Shown here: one piece after another, positions 2,899 to 35,100 of the stretch
How the letters are laid out: every line of letters starts with the position of its first letter
Position numbering within the stretch: position 1 is the stretch's first letter
Origin: Thunnus maccoyii
Lineage: Eukaryota > Chordata > Actinopteri > Scombriformes > Scombridae
Direction of reading: 5' to 3'
NCBI RefSeq assembly: GCF_910596095.1
Contig: NC_056539.1
Location: 12,162,501 to 12,226,500 of the forward strand
DNA length: 64,000 nt
The notes under the pieces: model-generated
Database searches by the model: none
Told to the model about the DNA's origin: nothing
The model's input: the letters and a program-made list of their open reading frames with translations, nothing else
Position numbers and translations under genes: made by a program

Positions 2899-2948
2899 GT
2901 CTTTTAAGTTGCTCTTTGTGTTACATGCAGCTCATCAAGGAAACACTG

Positions 2949-8674: not shown

Positions 8675-8676
8675 TG

Positions 8677-9890: not shown

Positions 9891-9893
9891 CAG

Positions 9894-11342: not shown

Positions 11343-11438
11343 ATCTGTCTCTGCATAAAGATCAATTTGTTGATTTTAAATAGAATCATAGCTGATAAAA
11401 GTATTTTCTAATCTGAGTAGAGTATTTCATCAAAATGG

Positions 11439-11752
<314 letters not shown>

Positions 11753-11754
11753 AC

Positions 11755-12980: not shown

Positions 12981-12995
12981 TCTAGTCTCTACTTG

Positions 12996-13258
12996 CTCTG
13001 GCCAGGGCGGACAGAGAGCAGTTGCTGGCCGAAAATGGCAAGATCCTGCAGCAACAGCCAGGACCAAGACTGCGAGGTCCCCAGTCACCTCTTGTACCTC
13101 ACATGGCAGCTCTCTCCCTCCCCAGCCACAGAAGACTGTCCCCCATGGCTGCTCCCACCACCAACTACCCTCCATCATCTGTCTCTCAGCTGCCTCTTCA
13201 CCCTCCTTCACTCGGCTGCCTGCCTGCATGCACTCCCCTGTCAAAGTATTAACGTGAT
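12996..13258 (+). pseudogene. GC-rich exon-like stretch, identity unknown
   Basis: After a CTGGCCAG acceptor an open frame reads ADREQLLAENGKILQQQ and then a Pro/Ser/His-rich tail ending LPACTPLSKY before TAA. The heptad-like start looks like the end of a coiled coil. Base composition and codon choice stand out from the AT-rich surroundings, as expected of coding DNA. No convincing GT donor follows in frame, and a second possible acceptor lies at about 13311. It could be a terminal exon, a relic, or chance. I do not recognise the protein. Confidence 0.3.
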
Positions 13259-13499
13259 GATTCACTATTGTTCAAGCAGTGTCCTAATACCTTATCTCTT
13301 CTCTGAGCAGGTCACAACACCCCTGAGACTAGAAGATTAGAGAGGAAGATGTAGCTTGTGAAAGCAAGCCGGCCCTCAGGACTCAGAGGGCTCGGTGTCT
13401 TGGGTCCAGGGTGACAACTGTCACAAGTGATTTCACACCACATGCATGAAATAGAAGGTGGCAGAGGGGGACAACACATTCTCAAATTTGACATTATCT

Positions 13500-14620
13500 A
13501 AATTTACCTCTATCAATTTTTGTTTTTTTCATGTATTTTTTACAAATTATTAATTGTCATTGCTTAGATACATACTTATGCAATTAAATTAAATCATGGC
13601 CACATCTACTGAAGTCTACAGATTTAATATGAGTAAAATTATAGATAATTACATTTAACCCTTGCATTAAAAGGAATTACAGAACTGATTTCTAGCATTC
13701 ATTTCACTCTTTTGTTGAATCACATAATGTCATTTTATTCAAAAAAGCTTTTGAAATGACATGAAACAGGGATTTTAACTGAAATTGTCTTAAATGAAAC
13801 AGATAGTTGAAAAAGAATTTCTAATTCATGTTTTTTTTTTAAAGTCCAGTAGGTGGCAGTGTTGTCTTAAAAACAAAATTAACACCTCATCTCTGCGATT
13901 ACTGCTGCTGCCTGTTTTTGTGGTGCATTTGAAAAATAAATATCTTGAATTTGAACCCAGTCACTTTGTAACATTACCCATGGTATTGTCAATGTACAAC
14001 CAGCATGAATACATGTGTAATATTTTAAACTGGATTATAACATGGTATTATATATGTGCAATGTTAGAACCATGGAGATACTGTGGTCAGTACCATGGTA
14101 CACAGACTAGTACTATAGTAAAACTGACAATACAATCTTGCACCATCATACTTATCATGACCCTTTTTATAGGGGGTTGTCCATGTTTTATTTGTATTGG
14201 TAAAGTAGAAGTACAAATGTGTGAACAATGAGGTCGTTTGGCGGGAGATAATAGGCATATTCATTTTTACACTGTATGAAAGGAACCGAAACGGAGGGAT
14301 TCATTGATAATCTGTCAGTAAAAGGTGCACCAGTGCACTGAAACTCCATGAACAGAGCCCTACATGATTTATTAGCAGGAATTGTGCAGTAGCCTAAATT
14401 TTATGTTTTGGATACAATTTATTTTCAATGTGGCTGTGCAGGTCAGGATCCAAGCAGATTTGTGAGCAAGAAACTTACTTTTCCTTTGTAAACACTTAAA
14501 ATTCACCACCAGTGATGGTTTATGGATGCCATTTAATGTGCTCAAAGTCTGATATAATTTGGCAACTTACATATAACAAAAAAGTCCACTCACAAAGCAC
14601 TTTCACCAGTGTTGTGGTTT
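13500..14620. other. Gene-free AT-rich interval
   Basis: No gene recognised. An open frame at 13794-14231 has low-complexity, hydrophobic AT-driven composition and no protein signature. Confidence 0.45.
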
Positions 14621-14644
14621 GAGATATTAAAAGGAGAAATTGCT

Positions 14645-15275
14645 AGTAATAGTCTGTACCTACAGAGTAAGGACTGGGGAACATTGTGAACTTAATAATA
14701 CAGCCCGCTCCCTGTTGTTACCATGTACTTATAGGGTAACTAGTCTGTACCTACAGAGTAAGACTGGGAGAACAGCACATATGTTGTGGTTTATGTGTAA
14801 TTAAAGAATAAAATCATTTTGCATAACTTCCTGCGTACCTTATTATTGTGTGATTAAAGATATACTATGTATATTATTACATTACTGTATGAAGACATAA
14901 GCATAATAAATCTCTTGAGTGTGGGTGAAGCTTGCCTGTCAAACACACGTGCATAAAAAAATGATTGTCATAACTGCCACGAGCAAAAACATTTGATTTT
15001 AGTACACATGTAACGTACTGATTCATACGAGAAAATTACACCATAAATTCCGGGAAGTTACATGGTAAATGTTGGGAAGTTACACTTTAAAACCCCAATT
15101 GTTATTCCCTTGTTTCTCGTTGTTTCGTTTTCTTCCGCTGTACCCACATTTAAGTACTAGTAAGAACCGGAAAGTATTTTATATGTACGGATTCATACGA
15201 GGAAGTTACACTGTAAATTCCGGGCAATTACATGGTAAGTGATGGGAAGTTACACCGTAAAACGCGGGTTGTATT
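14645..15275. repeat. Local tandem and near-tandem repeats
   Basis: GTCTGTACCTACAGAGTAAG occurs twice, near 14652 and 14743. A roughly 90-bp module (GATTCATACGAG, AAATTCCGGG, TTACATGGTAA, GGGAAGTTACAC) occurs at about 15017-15105 and again at 15184-15271. Non-coding; probably remnants of a fish interspersed repeat. Confidence 0.7.
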
Positions 15276-15289
15276 ATAAAGTGTTACTG

Positions 15290-15970
15290 AAAAGAGTCCT
15301 GCCCTGAACACATCCATGTGTCAAAATTGGATCTAAGTCATAGCGCCACCTACTGGCAACAGGAAGTTACATGTTTTACACTTTGAAGCCCTGTGGGTAG
15401 CACGGTGATCGGATCCACCTCAAATTTACCCAGGATAGCCTCAAGACCTTGGAGATCGTATATTATGAAGTTGGTGACTTTTCGTCGAAAGGTGTTGCCA
15501 TGACGACGTGGTGAATTTCGATGTCTCGCCATAAAATTTCAAAGCCCTATAACTTGACTCCACATGGTTTGATCTTTTCCAAATTTCATATGCTTGTTAA
15601 GAGTCCCGGTCTGAAGACATGTAAAGGCCCATATTTAGTGACAGTCATAGTGCCACCTACTGGCAACATGAAGTATTAAGCGCCACTCTTGCAAACTACT
15701 CCTAGCAGGTTAGTCAGAAACACATAAAATTTGGTAAGCCAAGGTGTAAGACCTTGATGATGATAACTCCTGAAGCCTTTGAGTTTTCATCAAAAGCCGT
15801 TGCCATGGCCACACATTGTTCGCCACAAAATACGAAGCTGTTTTTAAGGGCCAAGACATGCTTGAAAACTCCTTGCACACACGGCAGGTCTTATAGTCTA
15901 TAATATTGTATCGGTGGCTGGCATAAGTGTGGCAGAATGGCTCTACAGCGCCCCCTAAATAACATATCAC
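15290..15970. repeat. Interspersed repeat with ~310-bp modules
   Basis: ATAGCGCCACCTACTGGCAA at about 15340 recurs as ATAGTGCCACCTACTGGCAA at about 15649, and a relative (TACAGCGCCCCCTAAAT) lies at 15944. Between them are similar phrases about the loss of Thr/Val-rich noise but no true frame. I recall such modules as abundant in percomorph genomes. It ends just outside the palindrome's left border. Confidence 0.65.
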
Positions 15971-16480
15971 ATGAATGAAAAATGTTTAATGTTGTAAAAT
16001 ATGATAAAGTGGTTGGTTTTCTCGATTCAATGTAATTAACAACCAAAGAATAACATTTTTTCAACCCCTCCCACCCCTGTATTGGGGTCCCCTCCAACCC
16101 CTTGGTTGCGTCCAACTCATCCTCCCGCGTTTTTTCAAGCAGTCGCGGTAACTGCCGGTACAAAATGAAAGGAGGAGCGGCAAAAGACCAACCAACAATT
16201 TTAAGTTGTTGGTTGGTCAACAACAGCAAAGAGAAAAACCTCTTCCCAACAGGAGATATGCTACTGCTATGGCTCTACCACTCTTGAATCAAATAATTGA
16301 ATGAAAGTCTTATTTTTTGCTGTGTCATTGTGTTAGCTGAACTGTAAGCTAGCCAGGCTAACGTTAGCTATCATATAATCAGACTACTTTTACTGGAGCT
16401 ACTAGCTAGTTGCGATTATCTCGCTAATATTGGATATAACTAGTTTTTATTTCTAAATTGCATCTTATATTTCATCAGGT

Positions 16481-17528
16481 CCAAGAAGGTGAATGTAGCA
16501 GCCGGGCAGGCAGGGTTACCAGGTAATGAGGTGAAAGAGTTAAAGGATGGTTTATTAAAAAGTAATCACTTTGAGTAAAAATAATGTTTTCCAAAGTAGC
16601 GCATGTATCTTAATCCTGATGCCTTCCTTCATCTTATTTCTACTCCTCACAGGTGACGACTACACCTGCTGATGAGTTCAGTCTCTCCCCATCATCCCAG
16701 GTCTCGCTGTGCTAGGTAAGATTTTTATGTCTTTATAAGTAAGTCTTTGAAAATCCACAGACAAAGTCAATTTAGTTAGCTCTTGTGGCAGTTGTGCTTG
16801 TTATTCTATGTGCCTGTTTTTGGACATTTTATATTTATATTCATTCATTTTTTTCAATTCATTCACCTCATCAGTCATCTGCTTACATCTGTTCTTTTGT
16901 ACAAACTCATTCAAACAATGTTGTTTCTGTTGTGTACGTTTCTTAGTTTCCACAGAGAAAACAGTACTTTAAGGTAGTAGAATTGTTGTCAATTCAGTGT
17001 TTGATCATTACTCAACAGGAGAACCTGAATCTGAGATCCTGTGAGTGACCAAATGGATGCTGTTGATGGAGATCTGACTTCACCACCACCTTGGCTGTCC
17101 TCTTCACATTTTACTAAAAGTTCACCATTGAATATCAGGAGGAAACAACATCGCTGGAGTCTGTTCAAAAGGTATTACTCATTAACATTTTTACGTCACA
17201 TCTCATTTCTTTTACTTTTTTTACTTGCATTTTCCCTGTTATTGCTAAGATTGCTATTAAGATATCTTTAAAAGTTTGTTACAATAGGTAATTAAAATCT
17301 TGTTAGGTGTACCTATTCTACTTCTATGTTTGACAGTCGTAGATTGGTTATTACACTGACAGTAATGGTAAAACATTTTTGTTTTTCTCTCATCTACAGT
17401 AGCTGTCATTCAATTTGCTGAAGAACACGAAGCAGCAGTGGAGGATCAAAGTGAAATCACGTGGCTCCAGGCCTGCAAGGATCCGAAGCCTTTTGGTCCA
17501 GCGGACTTGTGATGCAAAGTGGACTGAG
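16481..17528 (+). ncRNA. Spliced transcript-like unit, exons 1-4, left arm
   Basis: Four exon-like pieces carry both splice signals. About 16480-16521 ends at CCAG|GTAATG, 16653-16714 lies between CACAG and GTAAGA, 17020-17171 between CAACAG and GTATTA, and 17400-17528 between CTACAG and GTGGGC. The third contains MDAVDGDLTSPPPWLSSSHF, and a frame in the fourth reads AVIQFAEEHEAAVEDQ and so on, but the two do not join in phase, so I favour a long non-coding RNA or an eroded gene. The signals are kept in the right arm. A terminal exon may be 19055-19540. Confidence 0.35.
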
Positions 17529-19020
17529 GTGGGCTTTTGGACTCTTTACAGACAAGTACACATGCACAAACACAATTTTAAATACCGTATAGACACCTGA
17601 GTACCTGGTGACTTGACTTCTGCCACAATTGAATATCTATGTCTAGATTACTCAAGTGTCTTGTATCAAGGAAATTATATTTCTATATATATCATAATAG
17701 TATATTGTCAAGTTAAGTGATTTAATTTATTTATTTATTTTTATACTTGTCGTGGGCTTCAGAAATTATGTCAGTATTTTTTTCATGAGTATTTGTTGAA
17801 CTGTGGCTACAGATTTAAACAAGCTTTTTACAGATTGGATTTTTAATGTTGTCTTTGTAACATGTGCTAATGTTTGTAATATATACACATTTGAAATCTT
17901 AGTTGACCTTGTTAGTTACAGAATGACTTTAGAGGACAGAAAAATGCACAAGGTCCCAGCTACTTTTATGTCCAGAGGGAACATGGTAGAATGTTTTCAC
18001 AAATTATAAGAACTGGAAATTGAAAAGAAAAAATTCTTATTTGCTGTTTTAAGTTGGTGCCCATACAGTCCAAACATTTCCTGCTGTTGCTACTTCACAT
18101 TAAAAGCTTCTCACTGGTTATTATGAAGCATGTACAGGAAATGCAAAACTGACTGCACTGGTGCCATTGGTCAGTAAATATTGGTCTACACAGAAAAATG
18201 TTTTGTGCTGTTTGGTCAGCAGATCAGTTTTGTGTATATATAGAAAATAGCAACAAAAAACTAAATTATTGGCCAAGATACATGTGACTATCGCTTAGCT
18301 ATTGTTTCAAAACCATGGACAGCGCTGAGAAAGTTTTTATGCACCTGCCCCTGCTGATTTTGACAGAGAATCGTTCATAAATTCAAAAAATATTTAGCAC
18401 TCTGCTACTGCTACGTTTAAATGTGAGTGCTCTGTCTGGTTAATAAATGTATTGATTTTGAAACACTGGCCTTAGGACTTGTGTCCATGTAGAGTTTTTA
18501 TTTCTCACTGTACAAGCACTTCATCTCAGCGCTCCCCAGCACCCTGCCACCACTTTTCTGCCAGAGAAAAACAATATATGGAGAAATACCCTCATGCTGT
18601 TGTTATTTAGCCTTTCTGAGGCTATTGCGTGGCTAAATCAATCAGTGTTTAGACCAAACCTACGTCCCTGCTCCTGTTGGTTATGCTACAACACTTCATT
18701 TGGTGCTTTTGAATAATTTGGGGGAATTTATTCAATAACTTCACTATCATACAGTGTTGTGTCCCCAAAATCACATTGATAATGAAAATTTATTTATTTT
18801 ATTGAAGACACCTGCACTTTCAAATACTTGTGTGTGTGTTTGATGTTTTATTTGCCTGTTCTATAGTTCTGTAGTGTAATATAAAGGCTACTGTCTTTTC
18901 AAAGTTTGTAAAGATTTGTGACTTTTCTTCTATTATGTGTGACTAATTGCACAGCTCTGTTTTTCTTATTTGTATTTATTTATTTTAACAATAATGGTGA
19001 GATTGATGATGACATTTAAT

Positions 19021-19050
19021 TCTTTCTTTCATTCTTTCTTTCTTTCTTTA
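19021..19050. repeat. (CTTT)n microsatellite, left arm
   Basis: CTTT units interrupted once; the counterpart in the right arm is the GAAA tract at 28276-28310, of different length. Confidence 0.9.
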
Positions 19051-19054
19051 ATAG

Positions 19055-19540
19055 TCATGTGACCATGCTGCTGAATTGGATGCCTGTTCCTGCTGAGGAT
19101 CCTCCCTGCTGACGTCTTTAGACTGTGGTTTAGCCACTCGGTTAAGAGCAGCATGGTAGTGTTCATATGGACTTTTGCTCGGGACGGAGGCTGGAGAAGG
19201 ACCCTGAATGGAGCTTGGGACGGGACAATCCAACACCTGCAGCCCTCTTTCCACCACCTACAAACCACTTCCTCTCTGGGCTACTACCTCCAGTGTTGCT
19301 TTCTGGCTTGGTTTATTTGATTGATCTTGGTTTTCTCACAGTTTCTTCTCTGTTGGTAAGGTTGGTCGACCTCAGTTGTACAGCTTTTTTTTTTCTGCTT
19401 GCACTTGACTCACTCTTCTCTGTGGAGATGCTGGGAGAGGCTATGATTTAAAGTTTTGAACCGGGTTCCTCTCGGCACCTTCTTCACAGTTATTGATTGT
19501 TATTTATTGGAACAGTGTATAGTTTTAAACATTAAAGATG
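19055..19540 (+). ncRNA. Possible terminal exon of the left-arm unit
   Basis: The stretch follows a pyrimidine tract and TTAATAG acceptor and ends with ATTAAA (about 19531) as a possible poly(A) signal. Open frames of about 80-94 codons exist on both strands here, in both arms, with no domain signature. Shared frames are expected from the duplication. Transcription is inferred only from splice-like signals. Confidence 0.3.
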
Positions 19541-19628
19541 CACTGCACCGGAGTTAGCTCAAAGGTACCCCGTATTTGGTAGTTGGGTTGAGTGTTTTGG
19601 AACCAGGGGCAGGATGCTTGGATGGTGA

Positions 19629-19998
19629 TCACTGCACCAAACCCAGTTTAGGCAAATAGTGAAAGGAAATCATGGCCGAATTCCTGAGCTGAACTCCTGA
19701 GCTGAACTCCTGAGCGATGATCTGTGGAGTCAAAAGCTTTTTCATTCTGCATTTGAGGAAACGCTTGTCCAGTATGCTGCTGACTGAGGGCCTCTCTATG
19801 GGGTTGTGTTTAAACAGATCTGCCCAGAGAGATCTCAGTTCTGGAGAGTAGTGAATAGACACGGGACAGAATGAGCCATGGATGATTTTCAAAAGTAGGT
19901 CTCGAATATTGTCAGCTTCAAATGCACGCTTAAAAGTGCACTTTTCACATAGTACACATCCAAGAGACCAAACATCATTCTTGATTGTTTACCACAGT
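19629..19998 (-). pseudogene. NEK1-like kinase C-lobe relic, left arm
   Basis: Reading leftward from about 19979, the frame gives [20 protein letters not shown], then the [15 protein letters not shown] stretch, [15 protein letters not shown] and [14 protein letters not shown]. This matches the end of the NEK1 kinase domain (helix F D-x-W-x-LGC through the last helices). A TAA lies upstream in frame (ELW-stop-TIK), and a short direct repeat has formed at the 3' end (19682-19715). It has no catalytic loop, DFG or APE. It runs away from the N-lobe piece, so it is not part of a normal gene order. Confidence 0.8.
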
Positions 19999-20091
19999 TC
20001 TGTTGATATAATATATTTTTTATGATTTATGTATTATATATTATTATATCAGGACATCATGCTGTGTTTTAATCAGCTCATATCATGGCAG

Positions 20092-20362
20092 ACAAGGCAA
20101 AGCCATCCTTATCAAATCAAAAGAGGGATGACAATATATAACTAAAGAAATTGACGAATCACAAATGTCAAGAGAGAAAAGGGAGCAATCTGCGAAAGAA
20201 GTTAAAGTCCTAGAAAAAATGAATCACCCTTATATTGTAAAATATAAAGAGTCGTTTGAAGAGGGGGACTGTCGGTATATCGTGATGGAATACTGTGAGG
20301 GTGGAGACCTCTTCAAGAAGACCAGTTCTCAGAAAGGAGTCCTTTTCTCAGTGTTTCCTTGA
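20092..20362 (+). pseudogene. NEK1-like kinase N-lobe relic, left arm
   Basis: After a GGCAG acceptor the frame reads [12 protein letters not shown], then a TGA stop (Arg codon CGA in the right arm), then QYITKEI with the ATP-binding lysine region, [20 protein letters not shown], and the hinge segment [15 protein letters not shown]. This is the N-lobe of a NEK1-type kinase. It breaks off after QKGVLF into unrelated SVFP-stop, where NEK1 would continue towards the catalytic loop. The premature stop and missing core make it non-functional. Confidence 0.85.
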
Positions 20363-20607
20363 TGAGCTGCATGTAACACAAAGAGCAACTAAAAAGACAA
20401 TAACTGGAAAATAACCAGTTGATTTGAGTACTGTTGAAGCCACATATTAGCTCAAGTATGGACAAGAGGAATGATTACAGCCACCAAGTATTTAATCAAT
20501 AAACATGTGAATGTTTTATTAAGATAGACTTCAATAATCTGAATGTATCATTTAAGCCTTTTGATAGACGTACATTTGAACGACAGTATAAATACCAGTA
20601 ATAGAAA

Positions 20608-20841
20608 CTTTTCACAGCAGCATTTTGACTTGTCATAGCAGGAAAAGCACAGGTGAAAGTGAAAACATCAACAATGGCTCAGTTCAATTCAAGTTTCCAA
20701 GGAAGTCATACCGGTGAACCATCATGCACTAAACTAATGTAGTGAATTACTAAAGCTAAATGGGATTCAGTCATAATTTATGTTATTAATTGCACCTGTG
20801 CTTTTCCTGCTGCTGCTCAAAATGTCTGCTGCTGTGAAAAG
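20608..20841. mobile_element. Miniature element (234 bp), left arm
   Basis: Counterpart of 2182-2416 and 26493-26727, with the same inverted ends (CTTTTCACAGCAG). Confidence 0.7.
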
Positions 20842-21267
20842 GTCAGTTTCTCTGTGTCAATAAGCCTCTGTGATTTACACACTGATAATAGACAAAATGG
20901 TTATTCTCAGCATCCATGTTGATCTTGATGTCCACATGACAATTTATATCATCATAGTTTGGGAACTGATGGATTGTTACTTGAAGACTTACTTAATGTT
21001 TTATGTTGAGAAGCAAAGAAAGTAACTAAAGACATTTACTCAAGTACTGGACTTTAGCACAGGTGAGGTACTACTTTAATTCTGTGAGGCTTTCTAAGTT
21101 TTTCCACCATGTTTTACTTTACATCAGCATTTAAACTTCTACATAAAGTAGTAAGACTATGTTGTCACAATAACTGAAACAGTGTAGAACAACTTCTGTA
21201 CACATTACTGCCAATACTTGATGTTTACTTGTATTCAGCTAAATCTTTAAATGAAGAGTTTTTACTG

Positions 21268-21438
21268 CTTTTTCACAGCAGACATTTTGACATGTCACAG
21301 TATGAAAAACATTTATTAACTTCATGATGGTTGTCACGGTTACTGAGACACTTGAATAGAAAGGAGTCATTGTTAATGTTATTAGTAACACTTGTGCTTT
21401 TCCCACTATGACAACTCAAAATGTCTGCTGTGAAAAAG
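21268..21438. mobile_element. Miniature element (171 bp), left arm
   Basis: Counterpart of 1601-1771 and 25896-26066, with 23-bp perfect inverted ends preserved. Confidence 0.75.
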
Positions 21439-21787
21439 GTCTTATGGAAGATTTTTTGACAGTGTTGCTTCTTTTACTCAAGTAAATGATTCTTCCTCGA
21501 CTGTTGAGAAGGAAACTATTTTACAAACAGGTACAGATAATCCCTGCATGCTTTTTGTCCTAAATTGAAGTACTTGATAAATGGCACTGGGTGTCGCTCC
21601 AGAGTGTCTAATATCGCTCCTGAACGCTTATTTCACAACTATCACCCCCTTCTGCCTTGTGCTGTGTGTGTGCGTGTGTGTTGTGTGTCGGATAGAAAGT
21701 CAGCCTGGTTTCCAGCTGAGTGCTTGCTCTCTCACAGTGTGTGTGTGTGTGTGTTGTCATTATTATCCACTCTGCTCCCAGCTCAGA

Positions 21788-22145
21788 ATGGCCAGATTCA
21801 CGCAGACTGAAAGAAGAAGGCAGCAGCATCCACAGCAGCCCCAACCCGCTCACTCCAGCCTGGTTTTCACCGGACCGGGGGCACCACCGAGCCAACAACC
21901 ACTTCTACTTATCCCACATCAGCGCCAGTACCCTCAGATCACATTTCCGAAACCCATGAACGGGTCAGAACCCATTTCAATTCATCCGGAGAGCGGCAAC
22001 ATGAAAGACCAAGATGCCATTAAGCTGTTTATCGGGCAGATACCGCGGAACTTGGAAGAAAAAGACCTGAAACCCCTGTTTGAACAGTTTGGTAAAATCC
22101 ACGAACTGACAGTTCTCAAGGACCGATACACCGGCATGCACAAAG
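21788..22145 (+). CDS. celf5: celf5-like first coding exon, copy 2
   Basis: The exon has an intact frame of 119 codons plus one base, from ATG (21788) to an AAAG|GTAACG donor. Its protein is the same as copy 3 and differs from copy 1 at residue 9 (Arg for Thr). RRM1 starts near residue 77 with RNP2 LFIGQI. No second RRM1 exon (which would read CAFLTY) was found between here and the palindrome centre, and beyond the spacer comes only the antisense of copy 3. Unless it splices to something unseen, it can yield only a truncated N-terminus with half an RRM: 135 residues if the intron is read through (16 residues added, stop at 22193-22195). I infer an orphan duplicated promoter-plus-exon. Confidence 0.75.
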
Positions 22146-23058
22146 GTAACGTGTCGCCCCTCAAATGGCTGCGAAGCCCCCATATAGCTTCATAATTGCT
22201 TATTATTAGCTGAACCTTTTCAACCGTGTTGAAATAGTAACGCAGAAAGTCTGGCTATGACTCACTTTTTACATTTTATCAGCTTAATCCACAAATCATT
22301 TCAGTCTACTGTTCCAAACACTTCATCACTATCATGAGCATCAATGCTTACATATTTTCATCTTACATTCATGGGCTTTGGCATTTTGTCCCAATTATGA
22401 CCGTTTTGCTCATAAAGCAGCTTCTTATTCATTTTTAACAACCTAATATTTTCTACAGCTTTTGTATTTCCATCTTGATTTCTGATAACGCGGGAAATCA
22501 ACATGTAATGTTGTTAATATTCTGATTTTATTCATTATTATAAATGATAGGGTGGCAAACTGTGTTGGCTGCGTTGTTTATTTTATTTTATTTAAAGCAA
22601 TTGAACAGTATTTTCTTAAAACGCTCCTAAGTGGGGCAGAGGCGCTTGGAAAGGATGCATTTTTAAAGAGCCTCCTCTTGCCAGTCCCATCTTTTACGGA
22701 GGGGCGGCATCATTTATTCATCCACATGCTTTCTTTAACATCTTTCCATGTGCGAATGGAGCTTCCTGGGTGCAAAGCCGACACATGGAAATCAGTTCAA
22801 TACCTCGATGGCTCAAAAGGGCGCATGAAGTGTCATAAGATGACGGACGTCTCCACGGAGAGTGGGCAGTGAAGCTGCTGCTGCTGCTGCTGCTGAAATG
22901 GAAGCTGAGGGAGGCAGAGGGTGTAAATCCACACCGCTCACTGTACACAGTGACAACTTCCACCTTCCATAATGAAGTTGGTTATCAAAGATATATGGCG
23001 GAGATCACTGCCTGGGTGGGAAATTAATTTCATAATACGTGGTCCCCCTTACAGTCGA
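22146..23058 (+). other. celf5 intron-1 start, left arm
   Basis: Conserved among the three copies (compare 1-897 and 24294-25190). A 106-codon open frame here (MANCVGCVV onward) is kept in all copies, but the copies are too similar for that to mean coding selection. A CAG/CTG-type short repeat (22873-22896) is longer here than in the other copies. No further exon seen. Confidence 0.55.
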
Positions 23059-23076
23059 TCACGCAGTGTAGACGTT

Positions 23077-23104
23077 ATCATCATCATCATCATCATCATC
23101 ATCT
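23077..23104. repeat. (CAT)n/(ATG)n tract near palindrome centre
   Basis: About nine CAT units, mirrored by the ATG units at 24240-24265 in the right arm. Confidence 0.9.
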
Positions 23105-23235
23105 TCGCCCATCACAACACTTGCAACCAATTTTAAATTTCTTGGATTACATTTTATTGGTATTTGCATGTAGCCACTTTGGACAAAGACCTTCCAAGTA
23201 GGTGTGTATATAGGTTGTAATAATCTAATTAATAA

Positions 23236-24105
23236 TAAGTTAGTACAGGAGATAAAGGCTTTTATTGTGGTGATATTTAGAAAAGACAAATGACAATCTG
23301 TTGCAGTGATGCAAATGACATTTATAAACATTGTTAAAGTCTGTCTCCTGCTTTGTTATGATGGCTTCTTTGCCCCAGTATTGATCCTTAAACATTGGCA
23401 GAGTATTTCAGAAATAATTTATTGCATTTGTCACACTCATTAGGCATCGCACGCTGCACCATCACACATATACACTCTATAAGTACACACATACATCCAC
23501 ACAGGCAAACAGACGGTCCTTTGTGATGTGCTGTCTATGGATCTGTTTGACTGCTGCTTGGAGGCTAGTGTAGTCTATGTGAGTGAGTAGCAACAAATCA
23601 ATGGCTGAGGTCTCCTACTCAGGGGTCAGAGAGGATACCAGGGAGGGTCCGGGGACTATTTTTTGCCCTCATGATGGGCACCTCACCGATGTTCCTCTGT
23701 GCTCTGCAACGTTCCTCCTCCCCCAGCCATTGCTCAAGGTGAGGTGATGATGGGAGGGGTAGTGAAAGGAGAAATGGAGGAGGACTTGGAGCTGGATGCA
23801 GGAGACATGAAGGGATGGAGTGATTTATGAAGGTGTGATGGAAGGGTGTAGTCAGGATCAGGAGATGGTGACTGAGCACAGTCGTTGGCTCTCTTTAAGG
23901 TGGCTGACATAATTAAGGTTTACAGGTTACGCTAGGCTGCTGCTTATATTACAGCACTCATTACAAGCCCATTAGGCCTGGGCAGAGAAAATATTGTTGT
24001 CAGAACAATGAGTGAGAGCATTTTGTAAAGTCCCTGCCAACTCCATACTCCAGCACAGAGATTAAATCACTTATTAAACCATAATTGTTACAAAAGAATA
24101 AAGCT
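23236..24105. other. Palindrome spacer (~870 bp)
   Basis: The only part of the 16018-31262 structure not repeated on the other side. It is moderately GC-rich around 23600-23860 (CTCCTCCCCC, GGAGGAGG). No gene or repeat recognised. Arm similarity ends at TAATCTAATTAATA on the left and its complement on the right. Confidence 0.8.
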
Positions 24106-25190
24106 TATTAATTAGATTATTACAACCTATATACACACCTACTTAGAGGGTCTTTGTTCAACAGTGGCTACATAAAATACCAATAAAATGTAATCGAGAA
24201 ATTTAAAGTTGGTTGCAAGTGTTGTGGTGATGGGCAAAGATGATGATGATGATGATGATGATGATAACGTCTACACTGCGTGATCGACTGTAAGGGGGAC
24301 CACGTATTATGAAATTAATTTCCCACCCAGGCAGTGATCTCCGCCATATATCTTTGATAACCAACTTCATTATGGAAGGTGGAAGTTGTCACTGTGTACA
24401 GTGAGCGGTGTGGATTTACACCCTCTGCCTCCCTCAGCTTCCATTTCAGCAGCAGCAGCAGCTTCACTGCCCACTCTCCGTGGAGACGTCCGTCATCTTA
24501 TGACACTTCATGCGCCCTTTTGAGCCATCGAGGTATTGAACTGATTTCCATGTGTCGGCTTTGCACCCAGGAAGCTCCATTCGCACATGGAAAGATGTTA
24601 AAGAAAGCATGTGGATGAATAAATGATGCCGCCCCTCCGTAAAAGATGGGACTGGCAAGAGGAGGCTCTTTAAAAATGCATCCTTTCCAAGCGCCTCTGC
24701 CCCACTTAGGAGCGTTTTAAGAAAATACTGTTCAATTGCTTTAAATAAAATAAAATAAACAACGCAGCCAACACAGTTTGCCACCCTATCATTTATAATA
24801 ATGAATAAAATCAGAATATTAACAACATTACATGTTGATTTCCCGCGTTATCAGAAATCAAGATGGAAATACAAAAGCTGTAGAAAATATTAGGTTGTTA
24901 AAAATGAATAAGAAGCTGCTTTATGAGCAAAACGGTCATAATTGGGACAAAATGCCAAAGCCCATGAATGTAAGATGAAAATATGTAAGCATTGATGCTC
25001 ATGATAGTGATGAAGTGTTTGGAACAGTAGACTGAAATGATTTGTGGATTAAGCTGATAAAATGTAAAAAGTGAGTCATAGCCAGACTTTCTGCGTTACT
25101 ATTTCAACACGGTTGAAAAGGTTCAGCTAATAATAAGCAATTATGAAGCTATATGGGGGCTTCGCAGCCATTTGAGGGGCGACACGTTAC

Positions 25191-25548
25191 CTTTGTGCAT
25201 GCCGGTGTATCGGTCCTTGAGAACTGTCAGTTCGTGGATTTTACCAAACTGTTCAAACAGGGGTTTCAGGTCTTTTTCTTCCAAGTTCCGCGGTATCTGC
25301 CCGATAAACAGCTTAATGGCATCTTGGTCTTTCATGTTGCCGCTCTCCGGATGAATTGAAATGGGTTCTGACCCGTTCATGGGTTTCGGAAATGTGATCT
25401 GAGGGTACTGGCGCTGATGTGGGATAAGTAGAAGTGGTTGTTGGCTCGGTGGTGCCCCCGGTCCGGTGAAAACCAGGCTGGAGTGAGCGGGTTGGGGCTG
25501 CTGTGGATGCTGCTGCCTTCTTCTTTCAGTCTGCGTGAATCTGGCCAT
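25191..25548 (-). CDS. celf5: celf5-like first coding exon, copy 3
   Basis: The exon has the same 119-codon open frame as copy 2, reading towards the palindrome centre, with donor GT at 25190-25189. Gln/Pro-rich leader, then RRM1 with RNP2 LFIGQI. Downstream exons are not found before the spacer. The 5' region (open upstream through a GTGTGT tract) is shared with the others, so promoter sequence may also be triplicated. Like copy 2 it is probably an orphan exon. Confidence 0.75.
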
Positions 25549-25895
25549 TCTGAGCTGGGAGCAGAGTGGATAATAATGACAACACACACACACACACTGT
25601 GAGAGAGCAAGCACTCAGCTGGAAACCAGGCTGACTTTCTATCCGACACACAACACACACGCACACACACAGCACAAGGCAGAAGGGGGTGATAGTTGTG
25701 AAATAAGCGTTCAGGAGCGATATTAGACACTCTGGAGCGACACCCAGTGCCATTTATCAAGTACTTCAATTTAGGACAAAAAGCATGCAGGGATTATCTG
25801 TACCTGTTTGTAAAATAGTTTCCTTCTCAACAGTCGAGGAAGAATCATTTACTTGAGTAAAAGAAGCAACACTGTCAAAAAATCTTCCATAAGAC

Positions 25896-26066
25896 CTTTT
25901 TCACAGCAGACATTTTGAGTTGTCATAGTGGGAAAAGCACAAGTGTTACTAATAACATTAACAATGACTCCTTTCTATTCAAGTGTCTCAGTAACCGTGA
26001 CAACCATCATGAAGTTAATAAATGTTGTTCATACTGTGACATGTCAAAATGTTTGCTGTGAAAAAG
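25896..26066. mobile_element. Miniature element (171 bp), right arm
   Basis: Counterpart of 1601-1771; one base change (GTTTGCTGTG) breaks the otherwise perfect terminal repeat. Confidence 0.75.
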
Positions 26067-26492
26067 CAGTAAAAACTCTTCATTTAAAGATTTAGCTGAA
26101 TACAAGTAAACATCAAGTATTGGCAGTAATGTGTACAGAAGTTGTTCTACACTGTTTCAGTTATTGTGACAACAGAGTCTTACTACTTTATGTAGAAGTT
26201 TAAATGCTGATGTAAAGTAAAACATGGTGGAAAAACTTAGAAAGTCTCACAGAATTAAAGTAGTACCTCATCTGTGCTAAAGTCCAGTACTTGAGTAAAT
26301 GTCTTTAGTTACTTTCTTTGCTTCTCAACATAAAACATTAAGTAAGTCTTCAAGTAACAATCCATCAGTTCCCAAACTACGATGATATAAATTGTCATGT
26401 GGACGTCAAGATCAACATGGATGCTGAGAATAACCATTTTGTCTATTATCAGTGTGTAAATCACAGAGGCTTATTGACACAGAGAAACTGAC

Positions 26493-26727
26493 CTTTTTCA
26501 CAGCAGCAGACATTTTGAGCAGCAGCAGGAAAAGCACCGGTGCAATTAATAACATAAATTATGACTGAATCCCATTTAGTTTTAGTAATTCACTACATTA
26601 GTTTAGTGCATGATGGTTCACCGGTATGACTTCCTTGGAAACTTGAATTGAACTGAGCCATTGTTGATGTTTTCACTTCCACCTGTGCTTTTCCTGCTAT
26701 GACAAGTCAAAATGCTGCTGTGAAAAG
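26493..26727. mobile_element. Miniature element (235 bp), right arm
   Basis: Counterpart of 2182-2416, same ends and internal inverted segments. Confidence 0.7.
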
Positions 26728-26970
26728 TTTCTATTACTGGTATTTATACTGTCGTTCAAATGTACGTCTATCAAAGGCTTAAATGATACATTCAGATTAT
26801 TGAAGTCTATCTTAATAAAACATTCACATGTTTATTGATTAAATACTTGGTGGCTGTAATTTTCCTCTTGTCCATACTTGAGCTAATATGTGGCTTCAAC
26901 AGCACTCAAATCAACTGGTTATTTTCCAGTTATTGTCTTTTTAGTTGCTCTTTGTGTTACATGCAGCTCA

Positions 26971-27241
26971 TCAAGGAAACACTGAGAAAAGTACTCCTTT
27001 CTGAGAACTGGTCTTCTTGAAGAGGTCTCCACCCTCACAGTATTCCATCACGATATACCGACAGTCCCCCTCTTCAAACGACTCTTTATATTTTACAATA
27101 TAAGGGTGATTCATTTTTTCTAGGACTTTAACTTCTTTCGCAGATTGCTCCCCTTTCTTTCTTGACATTTGTGATACGTCAATTTCTTTAGTTATATATT
27201 GTCGTCCCTCTTTTGATTTGATAAGGATGGCTTTGCCTTGT
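26971..27241 (-). pseudogene. NEK1-like kinase N-lobe relic, right arm
   Basis: After a GGCAG acceptor, [20 protein letters not shown] and on to [15 protein letters not shown] and QKGVLF are open, unlike the left arm where the Arg codon is a stop. The frame ends SVFP-stop. Only the glycine-loop end, the ATP lysine region, helix C and the hinge are present; the catalytic loop and activation segment are not. A short acceptor-flank motif (ATGCTGTGTTTTA) also occurs alone near 35435. Probably non-functional. Confidence 0.83.
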
Positions 27242-27335
27242 CTGCCAGGATATGAGCTGATTAAAACACAACATGATGTCCTAATATAATATAATGATAT
27301 AATAATATATAATATATAAATCATAAAAAATATAT

Positions 27336-27658
27336 CAACAGAACTGTGGTAAACAATCAAGAGTGATGTTTGGTCTCTTGGATGTGTACTATGTGAAAAG
27401 TGCACTTTTAAGTGTGCATTTGAAGCTGACAATATTCAAGACCTACTTTTGAAAATCATCCACGGCTCATTCTGTCCCGTGTCTATTCACTACTCTCCAG
27501 AACTGAGATCTCTCTGGGCAGATCTGTTTAAACACAACCCCATAGAGAGGCCCTCAGTCAGCGGCATACTGGACAAGTGTTTCCTCAAATGCAGAATGAA
27601 AAAGCTTTTGTCTCCACAGATCATCACTCAGGAGTTCAGCTCAGGAGTTCGGCCATGA
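27336..27658 (+). pseudogene. NEK1-like kinase C-lobe relic, right arm
   Basis: From about 27359 the frame reads [20 protein letters not shown], then [28 protein letters not shown] and [11 protein letters not shown], ending VRP-stop. Two Arg codons of the left arm are Cys here (CpG-type changes). An in-frame TAA precedes it as in the left arm. Divergent from the N-lobe piece with about 95 AT-rich bases between them. Confidence 0.78.
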
Positions 27659-27759
27659 TTTCCTTTCACTATTTGCCTAAACTGGGTTTGGTGCAGTGAT
27701 CACCATCCAAGCATCCTGCCCCTGGTTACAAAACACTCAACCCAACTACCAAATACGGG

Positions 27760-28265
27760 GTACCTTTGAGCTAACTCCGGTGCAGTGCATCTTTAATGTT
27801 TAAAACTATACACTGTTCCAATAAATAACAATCATTAACTGTGAAGAAGGTGCCGAGAGGAACCCGGTTCAAAACTTTAAATCACAGCCTCTCCCAGCAT
27901 CTCCACAGAGAAGAGTGAGTCAAGTGCAAGGAGAAAAAACAAGCTGTACAACTGAGGTCGACCAACCTTACCAACAGAGAAGAAACTGTGAGAAAACCAA
28001 GATCAATCAAATAAACCAAGCCAGAAAGCAACACTGGAGGTAGTAGCCCAGAGAGGAAGTGGTTTGTAGGTGGTGGAAAGAGGGCTGCAGGTGTTGGATT
28101 GTCCTGTCCCAAGCTCCATTCAGGGTCCTTCTCCAGCCTCCGTCCCGAGCAAAAGTGCATATGAACACTACCATGCTGCTCTTAACCGAGTGGCTAAACC
28201 ACAGTCTAAAGACGTCAGCAGGGAGGATCCTCAGCAGGAACAGGCATCCAATTCAGCAGCATGGT
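27760..28265 (-). ncRNA. Possible terminal exon of the right-arm unit
   Basis: Mirror of 19055-19540: acceptor CTATTAAAG complement at the upstream side, and TTTAATG (ATTAAA on the minus strand) near the far end. No protein signature. Confidence 0.3.
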
Positions 28266-28275
28266 CACATGACTA

Positions 28276-28278
28276 TTA

Positions 28279-28310
<32 letters not shown>
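28276..28310. repeat. (GAAA)n microsatellite, right arm
   Basis: About eight units; counterpart of the CTTT tract at 19021-19050. Confidence 0.9.
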
Positions 28311-29726
28311 ATTATATGTCATCATCAATCTCACCATTATTGTTAAAATAAATAAATACAAATAAGAAAAACAGAGCTGTGCAATTAGTCACACATAATA
28401 GAAGAAAAGTCACAAATCTTTACAAACTTTGAAAAGACAGTAGCCTTTATATTACACTACAGAACTATAGAACAGGCAAATAAAACATCAAACACACACA
28501 CAAGTATTTGAAAGTGCAGGTGTCTTCAATAAAATAAATTCATTAATAATTTTCATTATTAATGTGATTTTGGGGACACAACACTGTATAATAGTGAAGT
28601 TATTGAATAAATTCCCCAATATTATTCAAAAGCACCAAATGAAGTGTTGTAGCATAACCAACAGGAGCAGGGACGTAGGTTTTGTCTCAACACTGATTGA
28701 TTTAGCCATGCAATAGCCTCAGAAAGGCTAAATAACAACAGCATGAGGGTGTTTGTCCATATATTGTTTTTCTATGACAGAAAAGTGCAGAAAAGTGGTG
28801 GCGGGGTGCTGGGGAGTGCTGGGATGAAGTGCTTGTACAGTGAGAAATAAAAACTCTACATGGACACAAGTCCTAAGGCCAGTGTTTCAAAATCAATACA
28901 TTTATTAACCAGACAGAGCACTCACATTTAAACATAGCAGTAGCAGAGTGCTAAATATTTTTTGAATTTATGAACGATTCTCTGTCAAAATCAGCAGGGG
29001 CAGGTGCATAAAAACTTTCTCAGCGCTGTCCATGGTTTTGAAACAACAGCTAAGCAATAGTCACATGTATCTTGGCCAATAATTTAGTTTTTTGTTGCTA
29101 TTTTCTATATATACACAAAACTGATCTGCTGACCAAACAGCACAAAACATTTTTCTGTGTAGACCAATATTTACTGACCAATGGCACCAGTGCAGTCAGT
29201 TTTGCATTTCCTGTACATGCTTCATAATAACCAGTGAGAAGCTTTTAATGTGAAGTAGCAACAGCAGGAAGTGTTTGGACTGTATGGGCACCAACTTAAA
29301 ACAGCAAATAAGAATTTTTCCTTTTCAGTTTCTAGTTCTTATAATTTAGGTCAACTAAGATTTCAAATGTGTATATATTACAAACATTAGCAAATGTTAC
29401 AAAGACAACATTAAAAATCCAATATGTAAAAAGCTTGTTTAAATCTGTAGCCACAGTTCAACAAATACTCATGAAAAAAATACTGACATAATTTCTGAAG
29501 CCCACGACAAGTATAAAAAATAAAAAAAAAATTAAATCACTTAACTTGACAATATACTATTATGATATATATAGAAATATAATTTCCTTGATACAAGACA
29601 CTCGAGTAATCTAGACATAGATATTCAACTGTGGCAGAAGTCAAGTCAGTAGGGACTCAGGTGTCTATACGGTATTTAAAATTGTGTTTGTGCATGTGTA
29701 CTTGTCTGTAAAGAGTCCAAAAGCCC

Positions 29727-30777
29727 ACCTCAGTCCACTTTGCATCACAAGTCCGCTGGGCCAAAAGGCTTCGGATCCTTGCAGGCCTGGAGCCACGTGA
29801 TTTCACTTTGATCCTCCACTGCTGCTTCGTGTTCTTCAGCAAATTGAATGACAGCTACTGTAGATGAGAGAAAAACAAAAATGTTTTACCATTACTGTCA
29901 GTGTAATAGCCAATCTACGACTGTCAAACATAGAAGTAGAATAGGTACACCTAACAAGATTTTAATTACCTATTGTAACAAACTTTTAAAGATATCTTAA
30001 TAGCAATCTTAGCAATAACAGGGAAAATGCAAGTAAAAAATGTAAAAGAAATGAGATGTGATGTAAAAATGTTAATGAGTAATACCTTTTTAACAGACTC
30101 CAGCGATGTTGTTTCCTCCCGATATTCAATGGTGAACTTATAGTAAAATGTGAAGAGGACAGCCAAGGTGGTGGTGAAGTCAGATCTCCATCAACAGCGT
30201 CCATTTGGTCACTCACAGGATCTCAGGTTCAGGTTCTCCTGATGAGTAATGATCAAACACTGAATTGACAACAATTCTACTACCTTAAAGTACTGTTTTC
30301 TCTGTGGAAACTAAGAAACGTACACAACAGAAACAACATTGTATGAATGAGTTAGTACATAAGAACAGATGTAAGCAGATGACTGATGAGGTGTTTGTGG
30401 TTAAGCCAAATGAATATAAATATAAAATGTCCAAAAACAGGCACATAGAATAACAAGCACAACTGCCACAAGAGCTGACTAAATTGACTTTGTCTGTGGA
30501 TTTTCAAAGACTTACTTATAAAGATATAAAAATCTTACCTAGCACAGCGAGACCTGGGATGATGGGGAGAGACTGAACTCATCAGCAGGTGTAGTCGTCA
30601 CCTGTGAGAAGTAGAAATAAGATGAAGGAAGGCATCAGGATTAAGATACATGCACTACTTTGGAAAACATTATTTTTACTCAGAGTGATTACTTTTTAAT
30701 AAACCATCCTTTAACTCTTTCACCTCATTACCTGGTAACCCTGCCTGCCCGGCTGCTACATTCACCTTCTTGGACCT
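29727..30777 (-). ncRNA. Spliced transcript-like unit, exons 1-4, right arm
   Basis: The mirror counterparts of the left-arm exons keep GT and AG signals at all the borders I checked, despite scattered substitutions in the sequence between them. The frame holding MDAVDGDLTSPPPWLSSSHF is kept. Coding is not supported because the frames of successive exons do not join. Confidence 0.35.
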
Positions 30778-31262
30778 GATGAAATATAAGATGCAATTTA
30801 GAAATAAAAACTAGTTATATCCAATATTAGCAAGATAATCGCAACTAGCTAGTAGCTCTAGTAAAAGTAGTCTGATTATATGATAGCTAACGTTAGCCTA
30901 GTTAGCTTACAGTTTAGCTAACACAATGACACAGCAAAAAATAAGACTTTCATTCAATTATTTGATTCAAGAGTGGTAGAGCCATAGCAGTAGCATACCT
31001 CCTGTTGGGAAGAGATTTTTCTCTTTGTTGTTGTTGACCAACCAACAACTTAAAATTATTGGTTGGTCTTTTGCCGCTCCTTTTCATTTTGTATGCCGGC
31101 TTGCTATTGTTGGCACAGGCAGTTACCGCGACTGCTTGAAAAAACGCGGGAGGATGAGTTGGGCGCAACCAAGGGGTTGGAGGGGACCCCAATACAGGGG
31201 TGGGAGGGGTTGAAAAAATGTTAATGCTAATTATGTTACATTGAATGGAGAAATTTATTTAT

Positions 31263-31499: not shown

Positions 31500-32925
31500 A
31501 TGTTAAAGATACTAAGTGGCCATGTTATACAGTAAATGCTACTAGTTACAAGGGCATTCCTTATAAGAAAATGCTATCGGCAATCAGTCATTAGATTGAG
31601 TCAAGGGACCAGCAAACATTAACCACAATAAGGAGACTCACTGTAAGTACTTTTCAAATAGCAAGCAGACTAATCCCCCAAGAGAGGTTTTATTTGCATC
31701 ATTTGCCGTCTCTTTGCAGACACTGTCAGCAGCACTCTGATCCAAATCCATCATCAACATAAAATTCTCATTTAACTGTTACTGAAATGAGAAAAACACT
31801 GACAAACCAATGCACCACAGACAGTGTAGTACAACTTAGCCACAACCCACTCTCTTACTAAAACACATCTACTGGACAGATATCTAATTATAGCTTACTT
31901 AACAGTGGATTAAATAAAGTGATATACTGTCTGACACTGTGTGACAGCAGGCTCAAGGCTGCAAGGTGATCAATACTGCTGCTGACTGCTGCTGCTTCTC
32001 TTACTGAGGAGGGATCCCACAGCCCACCCAGAACCTTGACTTACAAATGGCTGCGTCACTGTGTGAGCTGGCCCTGTTGCTTTGGATTGAGCAAAGTTCA
32101 GTAAGTGCAAGTGTAGAGGGAAAGACATCAGCAGGCAGGGATACACATTGACATTACCGGTCAATAAAACAGTGGGTGGCAGCTTCATAGACAAAGGGCA
32201 TTTTTTATTGTAAACTTGTTCTTTTGAAATGTGAATATAATTCTTTCAAGCAGTAGGTCCCAGAGTACCTTGCAAGACATAGTTTCCAAACTGTTTCCAA
32301 TTTGCGTGACCGAGTCGCAGTGTTATTTTATGCTCTGTTCATCGTGTTATAAATGTATTGATTAAAGAGGCAGGGTACTCGCTGAACGTGGCTGGCCATC
32401 TGAATGGGAGTTGGCGGGGACAGGATCAAAGTCTTTGGTGGATGGCTCAGCATGTTAGCCTGCTTACATCTGTAGTGAGGAAACAAACAGGGACGCGGGG
32501 CAGCTCATATCGAATAAGAGCACTGAGCTGTCATACTGTAGCACTGGCTCATCGGCCTCTGAGGGAAAGTTGAGAGGCTATTTTTAGGGATGTGGTCAAC
32601 ACAGGGGGAGGGGTATTGAGAACTTCCATTTCATGGGTTTTTATTGACCAATGCCATTAGTGTTTTGCCAAGCTGAAGGCAGAGACAAGAAATCAATGGA
32701 GGTCACACTATTAGTGCGAACTAAAAAGTTACATACAATTTAACTGGCTGGCGTTTATTCTGCTGCTTGTTAACCAGTCTGGACCCTGAGAGGGAGGCAG
32801 CCTGACTCGATCTGTTCAGCTTGGGGAAGTCTGGAAGGTCCAGAGGGAGACAAAGACTGCTAAGGGAGTCATTTTGCATTCTGTGTGCAATTGTAGACAT
32901 ACAGTCAAGACAGGCAGACAGACAC

Positions 32926-32956
<31 letters not shown>

Positions 32957-35100
32957 CACACACTCCCTAATTACCAAAATTCAACATTATTCTCCACAGC
33001 AATGCACATAGGCACAGAAAGCATACAGTGCATGTTTGCACACAATTTAACTTGCCATATGCCACGAGATGAAGTCAGTGAGTGAATGAAGAACTTGACA
33101 AAACAGGCTGTGCAACACTTCAGGGAAAGGTTCTTCTCTGCTTGGGCTGGCATGGTGAAGTTATGAAACTTTAGTTGTGGTTTAATAAGCGGTAAGACTT
33201 GGAGTTGTCCCCTGGTACCTAATTCACCATTGTGCTCTGGTTATGCATTGCAAAGCATGTCCGTTCAACTGTAAGGTGTTGTGCAAGAAAATTAGGGTGT
33301 GATGTGATGATGGCCTATCACACTGGAGACAGTTTTATGGACCACTGACTTAACAGGCAGATGTGACAAGAACAAGCTGAACTGCAGGGTGACAGTGCTG
33401 CACCTTTCTCTCCAGACCACCAAAGAGAGACACTCCAGCATGTTGTTTCTAATGTCGGGCCACAGACTGAAAGGGATAGGCTCTGTTAAATATGATGAGG
33501 AAACTTCCACTTAAATAACTGAAAAAGTTACTGTCCAGCATTAAGTGATATTCCACTTCAAAAGCTGGATTTTGTTCCAATGGAGCTTGGAGTCAAAATA
33601 GTAAGGAGCAGCACCAGCGAAGGATTTTAAATTCTGCTGTTTATATAAATGTATAAATATAATTGTCAGTGGTGTATAAATAATCAATAGATAATCAAAT
33701 AAACAAAATGCAAAAGCATTTGAGCACCCCAATCTCACCCTTTCAATTCCAGTTTATGACATGTAAAATGTGAAGTGTTAACTTTTGTCTACACAAACAC
33801 AACCTCAAATTAAGATGATTATCATGGCTATTGACTAGCATATTTACTGTAGTCTGTAGTCACTGTAGTCTACATTCTCACTATTATCACAACACAATAT
33901 ATAAGAAAATTAATAATCAAAGAGAATATATATAAGAAAAACAATATATATATTACGACTCACTATATAAGTGAGTCGTAATCTGAGGTTGAATTTGTAC
34001 TTACAGGTTTTAACCACTAGATGGAAGCTACATTCCACTGATTCTCTTTCCTATCCTTACCAGTCATGTAAGGACGGTCAAGACCAAATAATGACTAACC
34101 TCCAATAAATTATTGCTGGTTCCCCTAAAGCTTAAATATCTCATTTGCTGTTGGTAATCCATATCAACAGAAGTCATACTCATACAGAAACTGTCAGCCA
34201 AACAAACAGGGCTTAGTAGATAGCTGTCGATATTTGGCCTTCTTAGCTGGCTGGTTATCTCTCTGCTTTGGCACAGTGTATGCAGATGAAGCTTTTGCAC
34301 AACTTTTATAGTGTGTTACTAAAAGCTGCAGTGATATAAAACTTTATAATACCAAAGTACATGTGGAGGAAGGAATATTAGCGTATAAAAGTGTTGGTAT
34401 TTGATAGCTTACATAAGTAACAATGGTGAAGTGTTTGTGTGGCTCTGTTGAGTTTAGGCAAATTAAGATGGGACTGTTTCAGGGCCACTGAGCAGCTGCT
34501 GGATCTTGGCCTCAAGGAGAAATCGGTGGAAGGTGCCCCAAACACTCCTCCCACACATATGTCAATATTTGACAGCATGTTTTGCAACTTTCATTATTTC
34601 TATTTATGTCCATTATTTCCACACAAGGTTTGGGTTATTCAAGTGTAGACTACTTTAATTCCTGCATGATATAATGACAGTGGCACTGCCTAGAGATTCA
34701 AAACACGTTTCAGTTAATGAAAGCAACAGCAAAATAGATAAATAAATGAGTAAAAATAGAAAATACTTAAGAAACAATTTATGAATCAATAAACAACAAC
34801 AATGAACAGAACATAACATGTCACTAACCAGAAAATGTACATACTGTCATCATTGTTCTAAACTCTGACTGGATCTATTTACGTATATCATAGATGTAGG
34901 ACAAGGTGCATCCAGTTTCACATTAGCACTTTGATGTCCCTTGATGTCCTCACCGTCAATGACCGGGATGGACACCTGAAAGAGTGAACATAGATAAAGA
35001 GCTGTCTGACGTTTCTTCATCTGTCCTTAATTGATATAAGAAAAATACTTTTAGAGCTATCTTTCTTTTGACTTGAACCTGTCCATAGTGCAGCATTGTA
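31500..35100 (+). repeat. Block B, right copy (direct segmental duplication)
   Basis: Starts at ATGTTAAAGATACTAAGTGG (same as 3640) and ends at GTGCAGCATTGT (same as 8674). It is 1.4 kb shorter than the left copy because of internal deletions: about 0.2 kb near 32090, about 0.95 kb near 33760 and about 0.37 kb near 34130. It carries a private 31-bp perfect hairpin at 33952. No gene recognised. Confidence 0.9.
33952..33982. other. Perfect 13-bp-arm hairpin
   Basis: ATTACGACTCACT, loop ATATA, then the exact complement AGTGAGTCGTAAT. The left block B copy has TATAAGTGATTCTTGATC here and no hairpin, so it arose after duplication. The left arm also matches 16 of 17 positions of the T7 phage promoter core by chance or otherwise. 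Confidence 0.9.

Follow-up and report, generated by a model that had tools for sequence, protein, structure and literature searches.

Sex chromosomes provide the best-known large inverted repeats whose arms exchange sequence by gene conversion. In the palindromes of the mammalian X and Y, inverted arms surround a unique spacer, arm-to-arm conversion takes place, and arm identity exceeds 99%, according to the portion of PMC8981503 used here. Inverted copies also arise in the duplication–triplication/inverted-duplication (DUP-TRP/INV-DUP) rearrangements of the human MECP2 and PLP1 loci, where templated insertions occur at the second junction (PMC4352052, cited in part), and in origin-dependent inverted-repeat amplification (ODIRA) at SUL1 of yeast (PMC10766186, cited in part). 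Here we describe a palindrome beside the celf5 gene of the fish Thunnus maccoyii, each arm of which carries a copy of celf5 exon 1. The window is the whole stretch of DNA analysed, 64,000 nucleotides at C7:12162501-12226500 in a genome of 782 Mb and 54 contigs; coordinates are those of the window, and negative values lie before its first base. The palindrome is a real feature of the assembled sequence. It is a natural rearrangement of an already known kind, distinguished by a clear signature of conversion and by its uncommon location.

The palindrome consists of the following parts, placed by self-BLAST and by end-to-end alignment of the arms:

16018–23235, plus strand, palindrome arm 1
23236–24104, spacer of 869 bp
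24105–31253, minus strand, palindrome arm 2

An earlier note, made from the letters alone, had proposed a large inverted repeat at 16018–31262 with arms of about 7 kb and a spacer of about 870 bp. The repeat itself is confirmed in the assembly, and so is its left end; the right end had been set 9 bases past the BLAST end at 31253. Self-BLAST gives two inverted matches, one between 18001–23235 and 29347–24105 (97.5% identity) and the other between 16018–17909 and 31253–29348 (95.5%). Over the 7,090 bases that align end to end there are 132 substitutions (1.86%), of which 81 are transitions and 51 transversions, so that the arms are 98.1% identical by substitutions. The alignment also contains 20 insertions or deletions (indels), the largest being a block of 91 bp at 17910–18000 that is present in arm 1 only. 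In shuffled versions of the window (n = 10, two-base blocks), the longest inverted match was 37; therefore, a palindrome by chance is excluded. The contents described as mirrored are indeed mirrored, namely celf5 exon 1, pieces of a nek1-like kinase, and an interspersed repeat with internal inverted ends. The three celf5 exon 1 copies that had been reported are likewise present, the third lying well to the left of the palindrome, as follows:

896–1255, minus strand, coding part of celf5 exon 1, left copy (lies nearest exon 2; 120 codons with a GT donor)
21788–22147, plus strand, coding part of celf5 exon 1 in arm 1 (points away from celf5)
25189–25548, minus strand, coding part of celf5 exon 1 in arm 2 (runs the same way as celf5)

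The palindrome is part of a wider array, which the earlier note had missed, as it had the partly copied spacer. We call the inner part of the arm A, the flank that adjoins arm 2 B, the copied part of the spacer S (its second copy, S'), and the nek-relic block, found in the arms only, K. The segments outside the arms are these:

1–2550, plus strand, third (left) copy of inner arm A, in direct order with arm 2 and inverted relative to arm 1
3640–8677, plus strand, left copy of B, in pieces that match 31500–35099, with unmatched stretches between
31500–35099, plus strand, right copy of B, adjoining arm 2 (self-BLAST)
11539–11756, minus strand, inverted B fragment of 218 bp left of arm 1, 97.7% identical with 5296–5079 and 32924–32712
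23332–24054, plus strand, S, 723 bp, with its other copy, inverted and 96.6% identical, at −9984 to −9263

Read along the plus strand, the order is S'-A-B, then the inverted (B fragment)-K-A-S, then A-K-B. Thus, the three A copies are laid out direct-inverted-direct, and copy number along the locus runs from two (S) to three (A) to two (B). The left A copy matches 24294–26860 at 97.3% and 23048–20472 at 97.1%, and it ends at position 1 only because the preceding bases read N. These bases, −2499 to 0 (C7:12160001-12162500), are a run of 2,500 N that stops exactly at the window start. The B copies, in direct order, match in pieces at 89–92.5% BLAST identity, and arm 1 is without B apart from the 218-bp inverted fragment. 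S has one other place in the genome, within celf5 intron 1, 33 kb from the spacer. Its ends are abrupt, and in the spacer it is flanked by 96 and 50 bp without an assigned origin. Genome-wide searches for repeats and relatives, in each of which the best 40 candidates were scored, gave 93 matches to 1–8677, and the non-repeat parts of that stretch were confined to this locus. A foldback mobile element was considered as the source of the palindrome and rejected, S being in only two places in the genome and these non-repeat parts, among the scored candidates, in one locus.

Divergence is very uneven along the arms. The feature that stands out is the following:

21308–23105, plus strand, substitution-free tract in arm 1 of 1,790 aligned bases, with its counterpart at 24237–26026 in arm 2

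This tract lies around celf5 exon 1. It contains no substitution and two indels (2 and 6 bp), and it ends abruptly at 21307 and 23106. All the substitutions between the arms fall in the remaining 5,300 aligned bases (132/5,300, 2.49%), where the second-longest run free of them measures 224. When the substitutions were placed at random, none of 20,000 permutations reached the length of the tract (maximum 754), and the result was again 0/20,000 (maximum 988) when substitutions within 10 bp of each other were merged into 95 events. Within the tract, the left copy is distinct from either arm at 9 sites in 445–641 and also at 1230, 1416, 1576 and other positions; therefore, constraint alone is insufficient to account for it. 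The three-way alignment has 55 left-only sites (8 of them at 2551–2560, beyond the homology, and 13 clustered at 2128–2146), against 7 arm-2-only and 4 arm-1-only sites. Arm-to-arm gene conversion would be the simplest cause of the substitution-free tract, judging from these alignments. Less surely, conversion may also have involved the left copy. In A, the left copy and arm 2 differ by 53 substitutions in 2,547 bases (2.08%), with uninterrupted runs of 588 (642–1229) and 444 (1–444); such runs were reached in 0/20,000 random placements, and in 104/20,000 with merged events. The claim of the earlier note that conversion keeps the arms alike thus stands, as a signature, for the 1,790-base tract and fails for the arms as a whole, with the substitutions outside it and 7 differing sites in the 134 bp beside the spacer.

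An alternative for the tract itself is that the celf5 promoter and exon 1 are under purifying selection and that this, rather than conversion, has kept it free of substitutions. The tract is centred on exon 1, and the 360 coding bases are identical in the arms and differ at one site, giving one amino-acid difference, in the left copy only. The 120-codon frame and GT donor are kept in all three copies, and the ratio of observed to expected CpG is 0.57 in each of them vs 0.26 in 36000–60000. This is what germ-line-unmethylated promoters would be expected to have, and conversion would maintain it likewise. However, the tract extends far past the 360 coding bases, its ends are abrupt, and the 9 left-copy differences at 445–641 fall within it. 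Selection in place of conversion is, we think, improbable, although selection around exon 1 may help to conserve the sequence.

The other segments bear on the history of the array. S and its other copy differ by 16 substitutions in 718 sites (2.23%), a divergence like that of the arms outside the tract (2.23% vs 2.49%, Fisher p 0.8), and the divergence of the left A copy from arm 2 is not above that of the arms either (p 0.3). In contrast, the divergence of the three longest pieces of B is higher, at 4.47% (142 substitutions over 3,177 aligned bases), both against the arms outside the tract (p 1.2e-6) and against S (p 0.0045). The divergence of B is itself uneven, from 1/199 to 18/182 per 200-bp bin. 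Since S resembles the arms in divergence and B exceeds them, these data fit a younger inverted event superimposed on an older direct duplication.

We propose that the locus probably arose by stepwise segmental duplication, a replicative template switch, and then patchy gene conversion. In the initial step, a segment comprising A and B, and with them the promoter, first exon and upstream flank of celf5, would have been duplicated in direct order, giving the left and right copies. Later, a template switch of the DUP-TRP/INV-DUP type would have inserted an inverted A and its neighbour between the direct copies. The same switch would have taken up 723 bp from celf5 intron 1 to make the spacer, and so formed the palindrome. 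Since then, non-allelic gene conversion may have acted among the three exon 1 regions, the latest instance being that of about 1.8 kb between the palindrome arms. The homologies with their orientations and breakpoints, and the uneven spread of substitutions, are observed directly; the order of events, the replicative mechanism and conversion as the origin of the tract are inferred.

Several observations count against this stepwise history. The 8–9 kb that separate S from A in the celf5 gene are absent from the palindrome. The segment 26985–31499 (nek relic plus repeats) is without counterpart in the left copy, which has 2949–3639 there instead. Except for the 218-bp inverted B fragment, 8678–16017 does not match either copy; a collinear inverted copy reaching into this stretch was sought, and that fragment is all that was found. 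The 7 sites beside the spacer amount to 5.2%, above the value for the other arm sequence but not significantly so (p 0.085). Moreover, the differences in divergence may reflect uneven mutation or conversion, which may have lowered any of these values, and not age, and the direction and order of the events given here are tentative.

Of the other origins that can be imagined for the array, the one closest to the stepwise history is a single DUP-TRP/INV-DUP event that gave all three copies, with later conversion and deletions producing the uneven divergence and the gaps. The direct-inverted-direct order with a 2-3-2 copy number matches that layout, and the equal divergence of S and the arms, together with that of the left A copy from arm 2, is as one event would leave it. 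Set against this are the excess divergence of B over both the arms and S and the absence of the nek-relic block from the left copy. We regard a single event as a possible, but rather unlikely, origin. It is more doubtful still that the palindrome is an assembly artefact or false duplication, made by joining two haplotypes or a fold-back read head to head. Repeated regions are prone to such errors, and the 2,500 N preceding the window could be an assembly gap, but the round coordinates of the N block suggest that it is no true gap. A fold-back read would yield near-identical arms without a spacer of this kind. Instead, the arms differ by their 132 substitutions and 20 indels, including the 91-bp block private to arm 1, a further repeat borders arm 1 but not arm 2, the third copy is diverged from both arms, and the 869-bp unique-like spacer has its own diverged copy 33 kb away.

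The least credible of these origins, in our opinion, is a sex-linked amplicon, that is, a palindrome at an early stage on a recently formed sex chromosome, where conversion between arms maintains it because crossing over near amh is reduced. The conversion signature in the arms would fit it, as would the amh gene 415 kb away and the presence of both Amh and CELF5 in the LG23 sex region of tilapia, in the part of PMC3276181 cited. However, amh is a single locus for which a second copy was not found, the identity of the arms is only 98.1% by substitutions, and the stickleback Y, which has the candidate Amhy, gave no evidence of large amplicons in the section of PMC7368989 referred to here. Of all these possibilities, the stepwise history with patchy conversion is the one that we favour.

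The gene to which the exon 1 copies belong was recognised from the exon 1 peptide, which has an RRM match, and from these further exons:

−16548 to −16658, minus strand, celf5 exon 2
C7:11980421-11980573 and 11977591-11977722, minus strand, celf5 third-RRM exons

We take it to be celf5 rather than another celf from the start of the protein, together with the gene order. On this reading the gene spans about 186 kb, with its 5′ end directed toward the palindrome. A unit of about 2,057 bp is tandemly duplicated, in direct order and with 98.5% identity, in its intron 2, at −41182 to −37076. By its orientation, arm 2 could supply celf5 with a second promoter and first exon. A more elaborate idea is that the palindrome is a working double promoter, the arm 2 exon 1 lying about 24 kb upstream of the first, in which conversion keeps the exon 1 pair identical and read-through of the arms gives a long hairpin RNA by which celf5 is tuned; the whole would lie within the amh-celf5 block, the one that turned into a sex region in tilapia. 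We hold this to be highly speculative, with little chance of being right, and in our view the palindrome itself does not call for a function.

The remaining contents of the arms are ordinary, consisting of nek1-like kinase relics and repeats:

19698–19988, minus strand, nek1-like kinase C-lobe relic, arm 1 (best match NEK1 4apc, E 2.4e-33)
20087–20347, plus strand, arm 1, N-lobe relic of a nek1-like kinase (interrupted by one in-frame stop and facing the C-lobe piece head to head)
26986–27246, minus strand, nek1-like N-lobe relic, arm 2
27353–27643, plus strand, nek1-like C-lobe relic, arm 2
16542–18237, largely interspersed repeat, arm 1, mirrored in arm 2 (copies on other chromosomes match 16542–17018 and 18001–18237)
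14646–15961, interspersed repeat bordering arm 1 on its outer side, absent from arm 2 (many copies on other chromosomes among the best 40 candidates)

Among the best-scored candidates, the relatives of the arm relic comprise nine matches on C1 at 37.2–39.05 Mb and one at C7:8.32 Mb. Because the pieces stand head to head and the relatives among these candidates lie at these places, they are best seen as broken gene fragments; a processed kinase gene carried by a repeat is not supported. The C1 matches are 53–61% identical to the arm relic and lie within 1.8 Mb, as a local gene family. Other copies of the 14646–15961 repeat bear tandem arrays with a unit of about 91 bp. No known RNA family reached its gathering score in 1–36000, and four other open frames of the window gave no Pfam domain at E 0.01.

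To the right of the palindrome the following genes or parts of genes were found:

60886–62103, relaxin-3 receptor gene, intact-looking, single exon (E 3.5e-116 to relaxin-3 receptor 1)
about +92 to +96 kb, elongation-factor pieces (EFG_III above its cut-off, GTP_EFTU below)
+102 kb, HMG box
+126 kb, unc-13 homolog A piece
+157 kb, IQ motifs and a myosin head piece (myosin head below its cut-off)
C7:12608872-12610186, amh, the sole amh locus found in the genome, some 382 kb beyond the right end of the window

The stretch at 44.8–52.8 kb may be CREB3-like; Pfam was empty in two of its frames. The genes between amh and celf5 are arranged as in the LG23 sex region of Nile tilapia, for which Table 4 of PMC3276181, the part used here, gives the order Amh, MYO5b, UNC13A, HMG20b, EEF2, Rxfp3, CREB3 and CELF5. 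In the mandarin fish, amh and celf5 are named together in the legend of a sex-gene figure (PMC8262678, that legend only). Since amh, which determines sex in several fishes, is nearby and the gene order is LG23-like, neither the autosomal location assumed in the earlier note nor sex linkage can be taken for granted, and the amh-celf5 location makes the locus worth examining in both sexes.

Among the literature matches listed, no title dealt with a celf5 palindrome or with an autosomal fish palindrome with conversion, which does not prove that none exists. The locus is a compact natural case, with three comparable copies, a dated-looking spacer and a sharp conversion tract over a coding exon, and it would allow inverted duplication and conversion to be studied in a fish. 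In layout the locus resembles DUP-TRP/INV-DUP. Here, too, one segment is present three times with its middle copy inverted, the flanks are present twice and a piece is inserted at a junction, S resembling a templated insertion; the other junction is masked by repeat. Unlike the human rearrangements, this one is much smaller and is fixed in the reference assembly, with gaps in collinearity and a conversion signature. As to the 1-2-3-2-1 flanks, B is duplicated on one side, and the other side has S, only 723 bp and not contiguous with A in the gene. Nor are the segments of equal apparent age, with B at 4.47% vs 2.49% for the arms, a difference that conversion or uneven mutation could mimic. With ODIRA, as far as the cited part of PMC10766186 describes it, the locus shares a palindromic junction, a short spacer and a place inside an inverted triplication, but its right junction bears a copied piece. 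The near-identical arms without unique spacer or private insertions that mark an assembly artefact are not what the alignment contains. Finally, the palindromes of the mammalian X and Y resemble this one in their inverted arms around a unique spacer and in arm-to-arm conversion, seen here by its signature, but their arms have a median of 37 kb and more than 99% identity (the same portion of PMC8981503), against 7 kb and 98.1% (132/7,090) here, where the conversion signature covers just 1.8 kb.

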